Assembly: GCF_947077775.1 (NCBI RefSeq)
Contig: NZ_CAMTTE010000001.1
Location: forward strand, 2,942,501 to 3,006,500
Source: Salinibacter pepae
GTDB lineage: Bacteria; Bacteroidota; Rhodothermia; Rhodothermales; Salinibacteraceae
Reading direction: 5' to 3'
Length of the DNA stretch: 64,000 bases
The first letter of the stretch is position 1. Each line of letters begins with the position of its first letter. The translations under genes and the position numbers were made by a program. Positions 19,339-30,389 of the stretch are shown one piece after another. Below the pieces are notes generated by a model. That model did not search any database, was not told where the DNA came from, and was given only the letters and a program-made list of their open reading frames with translations.

Positions 19339-21408
19339 CTACAGCGTCGCCTCCTCCGACGGATGCCCGTCCCCGCTGTACCCCTGCGGCACCTCCTCCG
19401 GCGACTGGCCGGCGGAGGGCGACTGGCCTGACGGGGAGGGCTGGCCTGCTGAAGGCGATGGGCCTGCCCCCGCCTCGATCCGGAACTGCCGAACCGTCTC
19501 TTCCAGCTCGGTACTGAGCCGCTCCAGCCGGCCGGCGGTGTCGGACACCTGGGTGACCCCTGCGGCCGACTCCTGGGCCGCCGTCGAGATCGACTCGACC
19601 GACCGAGCGATCTCCTCGCTGGTGGTGGACTGCTGCTCGGAGGCCGCCGCAATCTCGTCGGTCATCTGCTCGACCCGGCTGATCGAGCCGACAATCTCGT
19701 CTAAAACAGCGCTGGCCTCCCGGGAGAGCTCGATCCCCTCCTCCGCGTTGGCGCTGCTCTGGCGGGCCGCCACCACCGCCTCCTGGATCTCGGCCTGGAC
19801 CTCGCCGATGATCTCGGCAATCTCGGTGGTGGCCTGGTCGGTCTCCTCCGCCAGCTGGCGCACCTCCTCGGCCACGACCCCGAAGCCCTGGCCGGTGTTC
19901 TCGCCCCCGGACGTGCCCCCGGCCCGGGCGGCCTCGATCGCGGCATTTAAGGCCAAGAGGTTGGTCTGGCCGGCGATGTCGTCGATCGTGTCGACGACCT
20001 GGCTGATCTCCTCGCTGGAGGCCTGGAGGCGCTCGATGGTCTCGGCGGTGCCCTGGACCTCCTCGGCGATCTCCTCCATCTTGCCGGTCGCCTCGGCGAC
20101 GACCTCCTGGCCCTCCTGGGCCTGCTGGCTGCCGTCGCCGGCGGCGTCGGCGACCTGCTGGACGCTGCGGGCGTTTTCGCCGATCGTCTCGTTCAGCTGC
20201 TCGACGGCGGCGGCCACCTCCTCGGCCTGGGCGGACTGCTCCTCGGCGCTGGCGGCCATCTGCTCGGAGGAGGCACTGATCTGCTCGGTCGCCGAGGCGG
20301 TCGAGCCGGCCGCCTCCCGGACCCGCTCGACGATGGAGCGAAGGCCGGCGACCGCCTCGTTGAAGCCCTCAAAGAGGCGCCCGATCGCCCCGTCCCGGCC
20401 GGTCGGGAGGCGAACCGTCAGGTCCCCGTCGGCAAAGCGGCCGATCGCCTCCAGCATCGTGTCGACGCTCTCCTGCAGGCGCTCCTTCTGCTGTTCGGAC
20501 TCCCGGACGGCCTCCTCCACGCGGCGCTCGACGGAGGCCTTCTCGTCTTCGAGCGCCTCCATGGCCTCGGCAATCTGGCGCTGCTGCTGGTTAAACGCCT
20601 CAGCGACCGCGGTAATCTCACGGGCCCCCTCGACCGAGACGGTCACGTTCTCCTCTTCGCTGTGGGTCAGCTGGCGGGCGAGGGACCGGAGCGGGCTGGT
20701 GACCCGGCTGCGCAGGACGTAGAGGATCGCCGCGATCCCCGCCGCCAGGAGGATGAAGATGCCGACCATGGCCCACCGGACGGTTGCCGACCAGCTTCGG
20801 TTCGACCCGACCTTCTGCGCGGCCTGCTCCTCAATGGTTCGTCGAAACTGCTGCGTCGGCCTCATGATTGCCTCTTTTGCCGCCGCGTACTCCTCCCCAA
20901 ACATCAGCTGTTGGGCCTTGTCGCGCTTCTCCTCGGCGGCAAGGGCCTGGTCGGCCTCATTCAGGTCGGCCTCCGCGACCGCACTGGGCATCTCCGATTC
21001 CGGCACGCCGTTGGCCTCTAGGACGAGGCGCATCGCCTGCATCTCGGTTTTCACGAGCGCATTGGATTTTTTCTTTGCCTCTTTTAGAAACTGAAGCGCC
21101 TCGTCCGACGCTCCCTTCAACTCCAGCTTGTTGACGGCTGTCTTGCGGCGCTGGGTCTCTTGGACCTCCGTCCAGTACTTATCGAGATGCTTCGGGTCGC
21201 CGGTCACCGCAAACAAGCGGGCCTGACGGGTCAGGTAGTCGGAAGCATTCGCGACCTGCTGGCCAAGATTCTGAAAGTCGTATTGTTGTTCGTACGACGA
21301 CTTGAGGGCCTCGGCGGAGCGGGCGTTGACGTACAGTCCCGCGCCGAGAGCGAGCAGGAGTATCGTGAGGGCAACTGCGGCCCGGCGGGTGATCTTGGAA
21401 AGCTGCAT
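19339..21408 (-). CDS. Methyl-accepting chemotaxis protein
   Basis: A 689-residue transmembrane chemoreceptor. The first membrane helix is at about residues 9-27, followed by a helical periplasmic domain of some 180 residues rich in Lys, Glu and Gln. The second helix is WAMVGIFILLAAGIAAILYV, then HAMP, a coiled coil, a second HAMP-like block (GRFADGDLTVRLPTGRDG) and the signalling domain. The hairpin tip reads DDIAGQTNLLALNAAIEAAR and GFGVVAEEVRQLAEETDQAT, the CheA/CheW contact region. The last ~40 residues are Pro/Ser/Gly/Gln repeats ending in EEATL without a clear CheR-binding pentapeptide. No che genes are in the window. Confidence 0.93.
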   Translation of the reverse strand: MQLSKITRRAAVALTILLLALGAGLYVNARSAEALKSSYEQQYDFQNLGQQVANASDYLTRQARLFAVTGDPKHLDKYWTEVQETQRRKTAVNKLELKGASDEALQFLKEAKKKSNALVKTEMQAMRLVLEANGVPESEMPSAVAEADLNEADQALAAEEKRDKAQQLMFGEEYAAAKEAIMRPTQQFRRTIEEQAAQKVGSNRSWSATVRWAMVGIFILLAAGIAAILYVLRSRVTSPLRSLARQLTHSEEENVTVSVEGAREITAVAEAFNQQQRQIAEAMEALEDEKASVERRVEEAVRESEQQKERLQESVDTMLEAIGRFADGDLTVRLPTGRDGAIGRLFEGFNEAVAGLRSIVERVREAAGSTASATEQISASSEQMAASAEEQSAQAEEVAAAVEQLNETIGENARSVQQVADAAGDGSQQAQEGQEVVAEATGKMEEIAEEVQGTAETIERLQASSEEISQVVDTIDDIAGQTNLLALNAAIEAARAGGTSGGENTGQGFGVVAEEVRQLAEETDQATTEIAEIIGEVQAEIQEAVVAARQSSANAEEGIELSREASAVLDEIVGSISRVEQMTDEIAAASEQQSTTSEEIARSVESISTAAQESAAGVTQVSDTAGRLERLSTELEETVRQFRIEAGAGPSPSAGQPSPSGQSPSAGQSPEEVPQGYSGDGHPSEEATL

Positions 21409-21542: not shown

Positions 21543-24500
21543 TTACGTCGGCCCGGGGAACCGCACGGTGAAGTGGCTTCCCGCGCCCTTCTCGGTGTCC
21601 ACGTCGATGGATCCACCCATCTGGTCGACGGCCTTCTTGGTGACGGTTAGGCCGAGCCCGGTGCCCTCGTACTCCCGCGCCAGCCCCTCCGACTCCTGAC
21701 GAAACGGATCGAAGAGGGTCTCGACCACTCCTGGATCCATGCCGATGCCGGTGTCTTCGACGTCGAGGACGGCGGCCTCCCCCTCGCGGGCGACCCGAAT
21801 CCGTACCTCCCCGGCATCGGTGTACTTGATTGCATTGGAGACGAGATTTTGCAGTACGATCTGCACGCCCCCCTCATCCGCCTCGGCCCACACGGGGGGC
21901 TCTCTGGCATCCACCCGCAGGCGCAGTCCCTTGCCTTCGGCTTTCGGCCGAAGCTCCTCGGCAATGGTTTCCGCCTGCGTGGCAACGTCCACCGCCGTGC
22001 TCTCCAGCTGCATCTGCCCCGCCTCCAGCTTGGACAGGTTGAGAACCCCGTCGAGCGTGTTCAAAAGCCGGCGGCCGCTCTTTCCGATGAGGTTCGCGAA
22101 ACGAAGAGCGGCCCCCTCCGCGTCCTGCGTCTCCTCCGCGATGGCGTCGGCGAAGCCGATAATCGACGTCAGGGGCGTGCGGATCTCGTGGCTCATGTTT
22201 GCGAGCATGGCGGACTTGGCCCGGCTGGCGGCCTCCGCCTCCGCCCGGGCCGTCTCGGCCTCCTCTTTGGCCTCGCGGAGGGCGCCCTCCCGGTCCAGGC
22301 GGCCCAGAACGAGGGCCGCGTAGCTGCTCAAAATCTCCAGCAGGCGAAGGTTGAAGGGATCGAAGCCGCCGCCCTCCGTCTTGCCGACGACCACGACGCC
22401 ACGGGCCCCGATCGGCACGGCCGCCGCGGAGCGCAGCCTCCCGTACTCGATGTCGTTGTCGAGCTCGCCTACGTCTTCGATGATGACCGTGTCCCCGGTC
22501 TGGAGGGCGCGTGCCGAAAGGCTGTCCCCGCTTTTCGGTTGTGGCTCGGGGGCGGGGACGGAAGGGCCTGCGATCGTCGTCCGCGCCGGATGGATGGTGC
22601 TGCCGTCCACGAACCCCGTGTTGCGGAGCGGGTAGTCGAAGATGCTCCCGAGAAGCTCGTGGATGCGATCTGAGACCGCGTCGGGGCCTTCGGCCGTGAG
22701 CACCCGGCGCGTGGCCCTGTACAAGGCCTCGATCTTGTCCTGTCGTTCGTGGAGGGCCTGCTCCCGCTTCTTGCGCTCGGTGATGTCGATTCCGAAGGCC
22801 GCGACATGGGTCACCTCCCCCTCAACGTCGGTGATGGGCTTGTGCGTCCGTAGGAAGTGCCGAACCCCATCCGAGGTCTCCATCCGCTCCTCGAACTGGG
22901 TGGTTCGCTGCTCCTCGGCGGCCGTCCGGATCGCCCGATCTCGGCGGCGCCCAAGCTCCGGGTCCACGTCTCGTTTCCGGCAGTACTCCAGGTTCGTATG
23001 GCCGATGATCCACTCTCTCAGCTCCGGGTCCGCGATGCTCTGCTTGTTGACAAATTCGTACCGGCCATCGGGCTTGAACACCGCGAGGTCCTTTACGGCC
23101 TTCTCCAGGATCTGCTCGTAGTATTGCTTTGTGCTCCGCAGCTCCCGCTCGTCTTCTTTGCGTGCGGTGATGTCGCGGACGACGCAGACGATGCTCCCGT
23201 CTTCGAGGACCGTCAGGGTCAGTTCCTGCGGAAACGACGACCCGTCTTTCCGCACCCCTTGGGCCTCTCCCCGCCACTCTCCGGTCTCCTCCAGGGCCGC
23301 TATTGCCTCCGCTTCCAGGCGCTGCTGCTCCGCCTCCTCGTAGCAGGCCGTCCAGGACCGCCCCACGAGCGCCTCCGGCGCGTCGTATCCGTAGATGCTC
23401 GCGTGGGCCCGGTTGACGTACCGGTAGGTGCCCGCCTCGCCGAGAATCGCAATTCCATCGCTCGCGGCCTCCATGGCACTGGACCGATGCCGGAGGGCCC
23501 GCTCCTTCTGGCGGCGGTCGGTCATGTCCCGAACCGTGCACACGAGCCGGCCCTCGCTCACAACCGTGAGGGAGAGGGCCGCGGGGAAGGTCGTCCCGTC
23601 GGGGCGGCTGCCGGTGACCTCCCCCTGCCAGTGGCCCTCCTCCTCGAGGGTGGGGAAGACCTCTTCTTCGAGGCGGGCCACCTCGTCGTCGGCGTAGAGC
23701 CGTCGCCAGGAGGCCCCGAGCAGCACCTCCGCGTTTTCGAACCCGTACATGTCCGCGTGGGTCTCGTCGACGTAGACGTACCGGCCGTCCTCCAGCACCG
23801 CAATGCCGTCGGCGGCCTCCTCGATCGCTCGCAGCGACGACTCGATTGTGCGTCGGCGTTTCTCCTGCTCGGTGATGTCCCGGAAGATGCCCACTGCGAT
23901 CTGCCGCCCCCCGACCTCCACGGTTGCCGCGCTGATCTCGACCGGCACGTTTTCACCATCGTCGGTCTGGACGTAGATGGAAGAGCCGTCCTCGAAACGC
24001 CGGACGGTCTCCGCCGCGCCCGGCCGGCAGCACGCCTGAAACAGACGCCGGTACCGACCGGCTTCCCCGTCGGGATGCAGGTCCGTCTGGTGCCGTCCGG
24101 CGATTTTCTCCTCGCCGGCCCCGATGAACTCGGCGGCCTTCTGGTTCACTTCGATGAGACGGCCCGTGTCGATGTCGGCCAGAATGACCGGTTCGGGTGC
24201 CGCCTCCAAGAGCAGCTCGTATTTGCCCCGGATCGCGTCGGTCTTCTGCTCCCGCTGGTCCTGCTCCAACACGCGCCCGATCGACTGGGCAAGCAGCTCC
24301 AGGGCGGCCTCGTCGCCTGGGCCCAACGGCGCAGAACGCGGCTCCCGGCTCCCAAAACAAACCGTGCCGTAGACCCGGCCCTCGACGATGATTTTGGTGC
24401 CGAGGTAGCAGGACAGGTCGTACGTTTGGTAGGCCGGGTCCGTCGTCCAGCCCTGCTCCTCTGCATTCTCGATCGAGAGGGCCTCGCTTTGGGTGATCAA

Positions 24501-24932
24501 CTCTCGGCAGTAGGTGTCCGGCAGGTCCGCCTCTGCGCCCCTCTGGAGCTTCGGGTGTGCCCCAACCGCCGCGACGGTCCGGTGGGTCGACTCCGCCAGG
24601 TCAATTTGGGCTAGAAAGCCGACCTCGACCCCAAACCGGTCGACCCCCGCCTGCAGGAGAGCCTGAACCCGTTGCCTGACCGACGAGCCGTCGGTGCCCA
24701 TCACTTGACGGATCCGCTTTCGAAACGAGGCGGCGAATTGACCGGCAGACGGGAGGGTGCTCTCCGGAAAAGGGCCCTCGGTGGTTGTCTCTCTCACGCC
24801 TCCGTCCGATGAGACCACAGTCAGCGACTGAAGCGAGGACAAGCCCGTGGGCCGGAAAGAATTCGGGGACGCCCTCCAGGGCACAGGTGAGAACCGGTGT
24901 GTGAAGGAGGCGGGGTCCCGTGCGTGACTCAT
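21543..24932 (-). CDS. Soluble multi-PAS/GAF sensor histidine kinase
   Basis: A 1129-residue kinase without membrane helices. Approximate layout: GAF (85-225), PAS (235-355), PAS (365-480), PAS (490-605), PAS with PAC (615-735), GAF (745-885), HisKA (903-970), HATPase (1010-1125). His915 in NMSHEIRTPLTSIIGFAD is the phospho-acceptor, NLVSNAIKYT is the N box, VEDTGIGMD the G1 box and GTGLGLTVTKKAV the G2 box. The start is uncertain; MSHARDP is used, but the first ~80 residues look unstructured and a later start is possible. Divergent from a second PAS kinase. Confidence 0.9.
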   Translation of the reverse strand: MSHARDPASFTHRFSPVPWRASPNSFRPTGLSSLQSLTVVSSDGGVRETTTEGPFPESTLPSAGQFAASFRKRIRQVMGTDGSSVRQRVQALLQAGVDRFGVEVGFLAQIDLAESTHRTVAAVGAHPKLQRGAEADLPDTYCRELITQSEALSIENAEEQGWTTDPAYQTYDLSCYLGTKIIVEGRVYGTVCFGSREPRSAPLGPGDEAALELLAQSIGRVLEQDQREQKTDAIRGKYELLLEAAPEPVILADIDTGRLIEVNQKAAEFIGAGEEKIAGRHQTDLHPDGEAGRYRRLFQACCRPGAAETVRRFEDGSSIYVQTDDGENVPVEISAATVEVGGRQIAVGIFRDITEQEKRRRTIESSLRAIEEAADGIAVLEDGRYVYVDETHADMYGFENAEVLLGASWRRLYADDEVARLEEEVFPTLEEEGHWQGEVTGSRPDGTTFPAALSLTVVSEGRLVCTVRDMTDRRQKERALRHRSSAMEAASDGIAILGEAGTYRYVNRAHASIYGYDAPEALVGRSWTACYEEAEQQRLEAEAIAALEETGEWRGEAQGVRKDGSSFPQELTLTVLEDGSIVCVVRDITARKEDERELRSTKQYYEQILEKAVKDLAVFKPDGRYEFVNKQSIADPELREWIIGHTNLEYCRKRDVDPELGRRRDRAIRTAAEEQRTTQFEERMETSDGVRHFLRTHKPITDVEGEVTHVAAFGIDITERKKREQALHERQDKIEALYRATRRVLTAEGPDAVSDRIHELLGSIFDYPLRNTGFVDGSTIHPARTTIAGPSVPAPEPQPKSGDSLSARALQTGDTVIIEDVGELDNDIEYGRLRSAAAVPIGARGVVVVGKTEGGGFDPFNLRLLEILSSYAALVLGRLDREGALREAKEEAETARAEAEAASRAKSAMLANMSHEIRTPLTSIIGFADAIAEETQDAEGAALRFANLIGKSGRRLLNTLDGVLNLSKLEAGQMQLESTAVDVATQAETIAEELRPKAEGKGLRLRVDAREPPVWAEADEGGVQIVLQNLVSNAIKYTDAGEVRIRVAREGEAAVLDVEDTGIGMDPGVVETLFDPFRQESEGLAREYEGTGLGLTVTKKAVDQMGGSIDVDTEKGAGSHFTVRFPGPT

Positions 24933-25575
24933 GCGCCCGTGTGAGCAGATAAGCGGAGAGTGTGTCCTACAGGGCATCGTTTCGGGTCGCGTGCATCCCC
25001 CAAGAGAGACACGGCCCTCACGGCATGCTCCCTGCGTCATCGCGGACGATCGGCGCTAGACGGACCGTCCGTACGTATCCTTTAGACAACCAAACTGGGA
25101 AAATGTTTTCCTATAACCACGAATAAAATCCGCCTGAACGCGCACCGGTGGCAATCCTCGCCTCCCCTAATGCCCAGGCCCGGTGGGCCCGGCGGCCCGA
25201 AAGTGGCGCCAATGGACAACACCGCAAATACCATGCGCGTCGCCGTGACTGGGAAGCGCGTCGTCGTTTTCGGCCGATTCGGTTCGTTCCCCCGACGCAA
25301 CGACCCGTCTGGCGGGCCGGATCGTGCCGCGGGTGGGGGCCCGTCAGCGTCCCCGATGGCATGGGGTTTGACGCCTACACAGAGGCCAGTGCAGACGAAG
25401 ATCGTTGGGTGGGTTCCACCGACGAGCGCAGTCAACAGGTGTTGCTGTCGGTGCGGATCGTCCGTGGACGGCCCCCTCGGCCCGTCGCGCTCTGAGGATT
25501 GCATTCGACGGCCGCGTTCAGGTCCTCCAGGGCAGTGCGCGAAGCCACTGTTTCTGAAAAACGCTTCCCCAGTTC
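24933..25575. other. Divergent intergenic region between two histidine kinases
   Basis: About 640 bases with no convincing gene. A 140-codon minus-strand frame (25082-25504) has an improbable composition. An AT-rich patch at 25078-25135 is the most promoter-like part. It must hold the promoters of both kinase genes, which makes shared control possible. Confidence 0.5.
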
Positions 25576-28298: not shown

Positions 28299-30389
28299 AT
28301 GGCTTCGGAGTATTTTACCGAGAATAGTCAGGCGACCGAAGGGGCCGCAAGTGTCGAGCGTGATCTGGAAGCCGTGCTGTCCGGACAGGACACCCCCTCC
28401 TTCATCGCACGCCTGGGCCGCGAGGCGGAGACGGCCCTCGGGTCTATTCTCGAGCTGGTGGGTCGACTGCAGGACGCTTCCGCCGACATCGACGCGGTGA
28501 CGACGAAAATTCAGGGGCGCGGCGAAGCCCTTCGCAGAACCTTTCGGTCTCTGAGGCACCTTGCACGTCTGTCCGACGAGGACAGCGCCCCCGATCCCGA
28601 AGAGGTCGATGCCGTCGCCCTGGCCCAGGAATGCCTCGATGAACTCGATTCGGCCGCCCGCGGTACGGGACTCGAACTTGCCCTCGAGGCGCCGTCGTCC
28701 CCCGTCGAGATCACGACGAACGGGGCGACGCTGCGCCAGGCGCTGCGCCACCTTCTGGCAAATGCGATCACGTCCACCGCCCAGGGAGCGGTGACTCTTC
28801 GCGTCGACGACGAGGACGTCGGGATCGCCTTTCGCGTCGAGAGCACCGGTACTGGGGGGCTTGGGGCGCCCGACGGGGATCGTTCGTCGCTGTTTGAGCC
28901 TTTTGGGCAGCGAGAGCCGGAACAGGGGGCATCGCCAAAAGGGCTCGGGCTCGGCCTGCCGCTCGCCAACGCCTTTTCCGATTACCTAGGGGGAGCCCTT
29001 GACGTTGAGAGCGGGCCTGAGGACAGGCAGGGGGTTACGCTACGCGTGCCCCGTGACACTGTAGGGGCCGCCCAGGAGGACACCGACACGGGGGACGACC
29101 GAGACGCAGTTCGTCTGCTGGTCGTGGAGGACAACGACGTCACCCGCCGGCTGCTCCGCCGAATGCTCGAGGACGCCTACCACGTCGACATGGCCGAGGA
29201 GGCCGGGGAGGCGATCCAGCAGGCCGAAGAGGAGGCCTACGACGTGTTCATTCTGGACGTTAACCTGAAAGACCGCCGCACCGGTGTAGAGGTGCTTCAG
29301 GCAGTGCGCAGGATGGAGGGGGGCGGGGCCACCCCTGCGGTCGCCTGCACGGCGTACGCCCTGGACGACCACCGCGAGCATTTTCTCCGGGCCGGATTCG
29401 ACGATGTCGTGGCGAAGCCGGTCACCAAGCGCGAAATTCTCGATGTCGTCGATCAACGGCTCGAAGAGCCTGCTTCGTCGGAGGTGGAGGCCCCGGAAAT
29501 ATCACTGTCGGGGATTGAACTCCCCCCAATCCCGAGCACGCTCGTTGAGGTCGCGAGTCTCGCGTCCAGCCCCGAGTCCCCCGACGTGGAGGCGCTCACG
29601 GAGGCGTTGCAGAAGGACGCGGTGGTGTCGCAGTGGCTCATTCGCCACATCAACTCGGCGTACTACAGCATGCGGGAGTCCATCGATACCGTCGAGCGGG
29701 CCGTGCGGTACCTCGGCTTTCAGCCGGTGTGCAACCTCATCCTGACGAAAGTGATTGGGGAGAGCTTTTCCGGTGCCGAGGGGCCGGACGGGGAGCAGGT
29801 CCAGCAGTACATCATGAAAACCAGCGTGCTGGCGGCCTACGTGGCCCGCGAGCTGTCGAAGGAGATTGGCTTCGAGGAGCCCGGCGTGGCCTATACCGGC
29901 GGTATTTTTGCCCAAATCGGCCGGCTGGCCCTGCTCGAAGACGAGGGCGAGACCTACGTCGACCTTTGGTTTGAGGAGCAGGACCGGTCGGCGTCCTTTC
30001 GGGGCCCGCCCCCGCAGGGACAAGAGATTCTGCACTTCGAAGAGGACTACGTGCAGAACGGCCTTGCGGTGGGGCAGGCGTGCGGCGTCTCCGACAAATT
30101 GCAGGCTGTCCTCCGGGCCCACCACCGTCCCGCCCGGGCCCGCACGGCGTTCCGCCCGCTCGTCCCGCTCGTTGCGGTGGCCTTCACGGTGGCCCACCAC
30201 GCCGGCGACCTTGAAGACGAGAATCCGTGGGACGGCGAGGAGGCCCTCGCCCGCGACCTTCAGGGGGTCCCGGTGACCCGTCACGTAGTTGAAGGGCAGC
30301 CCCTTTCCGAGCGGAAGCTGATCGCGCTGGTCGTGGACATCGTCGGGGACGCCATCGAGTTCGTCGACGAGGTTCTGGATGCGGCCTAG
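28299..30389 (+). CDS. Degenerate histidine-kinase core fused to REC and HDOD domains
   Basis: A 696-residue protein. Residues about 20-260 look like HisKA plus HATPase, but the H-box reads LGREAETALGSILEL with Arg41 where the phospho-acceptor His should be, and the G1 motif VESTGTGG has lost its Asp. GLGLGLPLA (G2) and HLLANAI (N box) remain. Residues 270-390 are a receiver domain with an intact acceptor, Asp320 in FILDVNL, and the TAY and AKPV switch positions. Residues 405-690 are an HDOD domain (LPPIPSTLVEVASLA, VRYLGFQPVCNLIL). The protein probably receives phosphate rather than making it, with HDOD as output. Confidence 0.85.
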   Translation: MASEYFTENSQATEGAASVERDLEAVLSGQDTPSFIARLGREAETALGSILELVGRLQDASADIDAVTTKIQGRGEALRRTFRSLRHLARLSDEDSAPDPEEVDAVALAQECLDELDSAARGTGLELALEAPSSPVEITTNGATLRQALRHLLANAITSTAQGAVTLRVDDEDVGIAFRVESTGTGGLGAPDGDRSSLFEPFGQREPEQGASPKGLGLGLPLANAFSDYLGGALDVESGPEDRQGVTLRVPRDTVGAAQEDTDTGDDRDAVRLLVVEDNDVTRRLLRRMLEDAYHVDMAEEAGEAIQQAEEEAYDVFILDVNLKDRRTGVEVLQAVRRMEGGGATPAVACTAYALDDHREHFLRAGFDDVVAKPVTKREILDVVDQRLEEPASSEVEAPEISLSGIELPPIPSTLVEVASLASSPESPDVEALTEALQKDAVVSQWLIRHINSAYYSMRESIDTVERAVRYLGFQPVCNLILTKVIGESFSGAEGPDGEQVQQYIMKTSVLAAYVARELSKEIGFEEPGVAYTGGIFAQIGRLALLEDEGETYVDLWFEEQDRSASFRGPPPQGQEILHFEEDYVQNGLAVGQACGVSDKLQAVLRAHHRPARARTAFRPLVPLVAVAFTVAHHAGDLEDENPWDGEEALARDLQGVPVTRHVVEGQPLSERKLIALVVDIVGDAIEFVDEVLDAA

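Follow-up and report, generated by a model that had tools for sequence, protein, structure and literature searches.

A degenerate histidine kinase core joined to a receiver and an HDOD domain in Salinibacter, and a neighbouring kinase as its candidate phosphodonor

P0001 is a 696-aa pseudo-histidine-kinase-REC-HDOD protein, read from its ATG start and Pfam matches, in a 64,000-nucleotide stretch (the window) of the 3.63-Mb genome of Salinibacter pepae (28299..30389, + strand). The explanation that we favour, with slightly better than even confidence, is that P0001 was formerly a self-phosphorylating hybrid kinase and now works as a response regulator that receives its phosphate in trans from the adjacent histidine kinase HK25576, with its HDOD domain acting on motility. 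The signal to P0001 would then probably come from the neighbouring kinase instead of from within. The observations behind this reading are the loss of catalytic residues from the kinase core, homology to an intact form, conservation of the neighbouring kinase and co-occurrence with flagella and chemoreceptors.

The P0001 frame is not a chance one, because it is conserved at full length in homologues from two other genomes of the genus (G003, 94% identity; G007, 70%). Alignment to histidine kinase cores and predicted helices place a DHp-like helical hairpin at residues ~32-97 (28392..28589, +), although HisKA gives no Pfam match at E <= 0.1. A degenerate HATPase_c (CA) domain follows at ~140-253 (28716..29057, +; Pfam 143-252, E 3.6e-13), then the receiver at 271-388 (29109..29462, +; Response_reg 274-384, E 2.5e-20) and the HDOD domain at ~405-612 (29511..30134, +; PF08668 408-610, E 7e-28). 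A scan of genome contigs returned one full-length relative, from S. altiplanensis, and partial kinase or receiver matches at four other loci. A promoter and terminator scan, probably unsuited to this phylum, found nothing.

The kinase core has lost residues in several of the canonical histidine kinase motifs (H-box, N, G1, F, G2). Where kinase cores read LSHE or MSHE, P0001 reads LGRE, so that Arg41 (codon 28419-28421, +) aligns with the phospho-acceptor His. Of 27 other cores from the same neighbourhoods and from relatives, aligned after removal of 22 duplicate or weak ORFs, 26 have His here; the remaining one, the hybrid kinase core L030 of genome G030 (VGNEFKIPL), has Asn. The H-box Pro is Ala46; in the N-box the first Asn is His151 and the Lys is Thr158, with Asn155 retained; and the G1 box reads VESTGTGG vs VEDTGxGI, its Asp replaced by Ser182. 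HATPase_c is still detectable with a damaged N-box and G1; no loss was seen in the F box or in G2 (GLGLGL). An earlier note on this DNA had described a degenerate kinase core with Arg at the H-box His and Ser at the G1 Asp, and the alignment bears out both substitutions, to which the N-box losses and the H-box Ala46 can be added. That the core is dead is supported by this context.

The same note had asked whether Arg41 is conserved, and it is Arg in all four sequences in which this segment survives (P0001, G003, G007 and G002), encoded by both CGC and CGT. Six positions of helix 1 (residues 35-60) are invariant in these four, namely F35, R41, E42, L47, L51 and L58, of which Arg41 and Glu42 are the sole polar residues. 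The G1 Asp, by contrast, is missing only in P0001 and G003: G007 has the Asp and has lost the second Gly, and G002 reads DGGVG. All four therefore share the loss of the phospho-acceptor, and the nucleotide site has decayed unevenly from one sequence to the next.

Substitution rates show a core that is relaxed and still constrained. Between P0001 and G007, dN/dS is 0.31 for the dead core (CI 0.20-0.44), 0.115 for REC (0.05-0.22) and 0.146 for HDOD (0.09-0.23), vs 0.12 (0.07-0.18) for the live core of HK25576 in the same genome pair. The comparison with G002 gives 0.46 (0.30-0.69) for the core, counted from residue 84 on, with 0.139 for REC, 0.128 for HDOD and 0.118 for the HK25576 core. Constraint on the dead core is thus about three times weaker than on its live neighbour, and purifying selection still acts on it; its dS is also higher (1.09 vs 0.58 and 0.53). 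Identity to G007 is 42% for DHp, the least conserved folded domain of P0001, 55% for CA, 87% for REC and 86% for HDOD.

An AlphaFold2 model built from five aligned sequences has a mean pLDDT of 53.1 and is usable for DHp-CA and partly for REC, its HDOD part being unreliable. Mean pLDDT is ~64-92 for the two DHp helices (32-60, 62-92) and for most of the CA blocks, and the ATP lid (185-217) lies below 50. The best Foldseek matches of the model are the hybrid kinase ShkA and HK853, with RetS (7n0e) and DivL (4q20) lower down. The N-terminal part had been proposed to act in dimerisation or nucleotide sensing. Dimerisation is plausible, with the DHp helices predicted and their hydrophobic positions kept; nucleotide sensing is a weak proposal, because the N-box and G1 are damaged and the ATP lid is poorly modelled.

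The receiver retains the complete phosphorylation set: Glu277/Asp278, Asp320, Thr351 and Lys373. The earlier note had called both Asp320 and the HDOD domain intact; this is right for the receiver, where the acidic pair, Thr and Lys accompany the Asp, and right for the HDOD fold, but not for the HD dyad. The dyad is Ala538-Gln539 in P0001 and likewise in its orthologues, and the HDOD domain therefore looks non-catalytic. Relatives consisting of REC and HDOD in genomes G024, G026 and G040 carry HQ at this place, and the HDOD gene in the flagellar operon of the S. pepae genome itself carries HD. Both ends of P0001 thus look non-catalytic, which leaves REC as the sole recognisable site of phosphorylation chemistry in the protein.

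When the REC-HDOD part of P0001 was searched against 114 genomes of the order, near-full-length matches appeared in at least nine, judged on the best 17 or fewer candidates in each genome: five Salinibacter genomes and G425, G026, G040 and G024. The protein of G425, from another family of the order, is encoded by an open frame of 1046 aa (998 aa from a GTG start) with the Pfam architecture REC, PAS, HisKA, HATPase_c, REC, HDOD. Its translation contains MSHEIRTPL, NLISNAVRFT, DTGIG and GSGLGL, with the His, N, G1 and G2 motifs all intact, and it aligns with residues 34-633 of P0001 at 31% identity over 648 columns (E 6e-93). The earlier note, which has the pseudokinase and HDOD modules occurring apart from each other in many bacteria, overlooks this protein. 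A kinase-active homologue with His at the Arg41 position had been set beforehand as refuting the pseudokinase proposal; a His-bearing homologue was found by sequence in G425, and we prefer to see in it the likely ancestral state and not a refutation. The phylum search scored the best two candidates of each genome, so further HK-REC-HDOD proteins may exist beyond those found. The proteins of G024, G026 and G040 consist of REC and HDOD with no kinase part; their frames measure 443 to 449 aa, and they are 36-37% identical to P0001 over the two domains.

In the HDOD tree, the HDOD domain of P0001 groups with those of the REC-HDOD proteins, all nine genomes falling in one group (support 100/100), and G425 is sister to the Salinibacter set (92/82), a placement that we regard as suggestive. 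The kinase-core and REC trees do not place G425 beside the Salinibacter proteins, nor do they reject that placement (p-AU 0.25 and 0.31); domain swapping is for this reason possible, which counts against our preferred explanation. None of the core and REC groupings tested was rejected (p-AU 0.22 to 0.36), a shared origin included, and of the trees the HDOD one alone is informative. Left out of the core and REC trees were the truncated row of G004 and three REC rows on long branches, with L041 further omitted from the later core tree; the HDOD trees omit hits under 150 residues and identical sequences, and the later one also L005. Our first guess, that a kinase core had been added onto a REC-HDOD protein, is weakened by the intact G425 protein, and a hybrid kinase that lost its sensors and its catalysis is the simplest reading of the origin of P0001; the REC-HDOD proteins may be older than it or may be trimmed forms.

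Within the genus, the gene is present in five of 13 genomes (that of S. pepae, here G000, together with G002, G003, G004 and G007). The G003 and G007 orthologues are full length; G002, from an assembly that is 62% complete, has both parts in two frames with a break near codon 82. G004 has lost 3023 bp between the two copies of an 8-base repeat, and the second PAS domain of HK25576 now runs into P0001 at about codon 308 (L040:12232-12702); the kinase, the dead core and half of REC are gone, and the HDOD frame is still open. We rejected an in-frame PAS-REC fusion starting at residue 284 in this genome: the alignment from 284 to ~307 is a chance one, the DNA junction lies at the 8-base repeat, and indels in the first PAS domain shift the frame. 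Because of the G004 deletion and the G002 frame break, the N-terminal half appears dispensable in some genomes. Six genomes without P0001 (G001, G005, G006, G008, G010 and G012) possess the decarboxylase gene that lies downstream of it, and no histidine kinase, chemoreceptor or P0001 gene was found beside it in the flanks examined, which extend only 0.7 kb in G008 and 4.7 kb in G012. In a tree of this decarboxylase from 11 of the 13 genomes (G009 and G011 gave no match), the five P0001 genomes do not form one clade (one-clade p-AU 1e-50; at least two changes), a result from one gene and with the poor G002 assembly included.

The kinase encoded directly upstream, HK25576 (25576..28023, +; 815 aa), is identified by Pfam, motifs and neighbour conservation as a PAS-GAF-HisKA-HATPase protein with no fused receiver. 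Its H, N, G1 and G2 motifs are intact in all four genomes compared, it directly precedes the P0001 orthologue in G003, G007 and G002, and matches to it at 66% identity or above occur only in these three and S. pepae among the 13 genomes; G004 retains its front part as a remnant of the gene pair. P0001 is its only conserved neighbouring receiver. The proposal that phosphate reaches P0001 from a separate kinase gains support from this context, because an intact PAS-GAF kinase without a receiver adjoins P0001 and is kept in each of the three other genomes whose homologue is complete or nearly so; HK25576 is the predicted donor. The 275-bp gap between the two genes, which bears on co-transcription, counts against our preferred explanation. 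In G026, a GAF-PAS histidine kinase gene lies 168 bp after the REC-HDOD gene on the same strand; in G024, no such kinase was found among the REC-HDOD gene neighbours tested. Also in the window are a second PAS/GAF histidine kinase of 1165 aa (21543..25040, -), on the opposite strand and with nothing found that ties it to P0001, and a 689-aa HAMP-MCPsignal chemoreceptor (19339..21408, -) in the same clade-restricted block as P0001.

Flagellin (PF00669), chemoreceptors (PF00015), strong HDOD matches and P0001 occur in the same five of 13 Salinibacter genomes, with weak partial HDOD matches only in G009 and G011. A clade-specific gene as the sole cause of this co-occurrence is rejected by the single decarboxylase tree, with the poor G002 assembly in it. 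Across the 114 genomes of the order, hand-counted with strong HDOD defined as E <= 1e-13, 31 have both strong HDOD and flagellin, five flagellin only, 17 HDOD only and 61 neither (Fisher p 7e-11, with genomes treated as independent despite their relatedness). The five with flagellin only belong to family f13; the 17 of 48 strong-HDOD genomes without flagellin hold mostly single copies in family f5 and count against our preferred explanation. Three of the five HDOD genes of S. pepae have a chemoreceptor gene no more than 10 kb away, vs 5.6% of the chromosome, at a cut-off chosen after the distances had been seen and with two partial chemoreceptor matches left out; one of its HDOD genes adjoins a PAS-MCP gene.

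In the S. pepae genome, L098:12070-16155 (-; C1:1644069-1648154) has the order flgK, flgL, HDOD, in which the HDOD gene stands alone and overlaps flgL; two flagellin genes lie past it. Many genomes of the order have HDOD, flgL-like and flagellin matches at similarly close coordinates. Elsewhere in the S. pepae genome, an HDOD gene lies beside, and convergent with, a FliA/WhiG-type sigma factor gene (L097:9799-12114), and a PAS histidine kinase gene is followed after 63 bp by one for an HDOD protein without a receiver (L096:6733-9495, +).

HDOD proteins with effects on motility include GsmR, Cj0248, SadB and PSPTO_4229, according to the available parts of PMC11004494, PMC11813219 and PMC6543031; a further such paper, PMC4114195, describes in its available part GsmR as an HDOD response regulator that lacks the active-site His and regulates motility genes. 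The context supports the proposal that HDOD is the output of P0001; the link to flagella and the loss of the HD dyad are points that the earlier note missed. In the open-licence literature we found no report joining HDOD to Salinibacter ruber or to a hybrid histidine kinase, and none of an HDOD link to flagella or chemotaxis in this order.

These observations suggest the following course of events. An ancestor of the (REC-PAS-)HK-REC-HDOD type, an architecture that G425 retains, would have phosphorylated its own receiver. In a Salinibacter lineage the N-terminal sensors would have been lost; in the core the phospho-acceptor would have gone first, with His replaced by Arg41, followed, in an order that we infer, by other catalytic residues. 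HK25576 would now supply phosphate to Asp320 in trans, with the leftover DHp-CA module presumably serving as a dimerising scaffold. Phosphorylation of REC would alter the non-catalytic HDOD domain, which may bind a partner or ligand and so control flagella or chemotaxis.

Three other explanations compete with this one. The phosphate donor could be another kinase or an HPt protein, or the P0001 core could heterodimerise with HK25576 and restrain it. RetS restrains GacS through heterodimerisation, and RetS is among both the sequence and the fold matches of P0001. HPt proteins can serve hybrid-derived receivers, as discussed for the His-less CCNA_03265 in the available part of PMC11481889. HK25576 nevertheless has no receiver of its own and P0001 is the only conserved one beside it, and we consider a different donor or a restraining heterodimer unlikely. 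The kinase half could, alternatively, be a functionless remnant on what is a plain REC-HDOD regulator, or the gene itself could be decaying. The faster evolution of the core, the G002 frame break, the G004 deletion and the existence of REC-HDOD relatives without any kinase would all fit such decay. Yet the core has a dN/dS of 0.31 to 0.46 whose intervals stay under 1, the frame is open in G000, G003 and G007, in G000 and G007 across a synonymous distance of about 1, and Arg41-Glu42 and the hydrophobic positions have been kept, and so we doubt that the core is mere debris.

The conservation of Arg41-Glu42 brings in a third possibility, in which the core binds a phosphorylated receiver, either that of P0001 itself or a different one, Arg41 lies close to the phosphoryl group, and the state read within the chain is relayed to HDOD. 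The pair is the only invariant polar feature of helix 1, with its Arg kept through two codons, DivL and RetS are among the fold matches, and DivL, with Tyr at the His site, offers a precedent (PMC4211667, available part). According to the same text, however, DivL has retained the H, N, G1, F and G2 boxes, and a patch around its Tyr550 is conserved; in P0001 the face of the helix next to Arg41 shows little conservation, within the least conserved folded domain of the protein. A receiver-reading core is in our judgement improbable. An extended form of this idea sets out an order-wide series, from intact HK-REC-HDOD in G425 through dead-kinase-REC-HDOD with a neighbouring kinase in Salinibacter to REC-HDOD with a neighbouring kinase in G026, in which the dead core with its invariant Arg-Glu would read the phosphorylated receiver and drive HDOD on flagella; we put this forward tentatively, as a long shot worth stating.

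The observation of the earlier note is sound, and its interpretation is correct in outline, with the transfer of phosphate as a putative key step. P0001 ranks above an ordinary degenerate kinase because of its intact relative and its tight link to flagella. Versions with an intact, a dead and an absent kinase can be compared, so that the reason why a dead histidine kinase is retained becomes testable. The case also ties a poorly understood HDOD output to flagella and chemotaxis and offers a concrete candidate pair of kinase and regulator.

Set beside known systems, P0001 departs from a hybrid histidine kinase, as the phospho-acceptor His is absent and HisKA undetected, and agrees with a REC-HDOD regulator in its full set of receiver residues and in the grouping of its HDOD domain. 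RetS is a regulatory kinase core that acts by protein contact. We liken it to P0001 by sequence and fold matches only (6dk7, 6dk8, 7n0e). The G425 protein has the same domain order from DHp to HDOD and differs in its N-terminal REC and PAS and its intact His and N/G1/G2 motifs, which P0001 is without. The REC-HDOD regulators, including those of G024, G026 and G040 and, in the available part of PMC4114195, GsmR of Xanthomonas and DVU0330, share REC and HDOD with P0001 and, unlike it, have no kinase-derived module in front. CCNA_03265 of Caulobacter is a hybrid kinase that, like P0001, lacks the His and keeps its receiver Asp, and it is tied to motility; the available part of PMC11481889 mentions no HDOD domain, which P0001 has. 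DivL of Caulobacter (PMC4211667, available part) shares a DHp-CA fold without the phospho-acceptor His, a likeness that for P0001 comes from a model of moderate confidence. A receiver-docking patch of the DivL type was not found in P0001, where R41-E42 are the only conserved polar residues of helix 1 and the N-box and G1 are lost; and whereas DivL keeps its other motifs and acts on a separate response regulator, P0001 has lost more of them and carries its own REC and HDOD.
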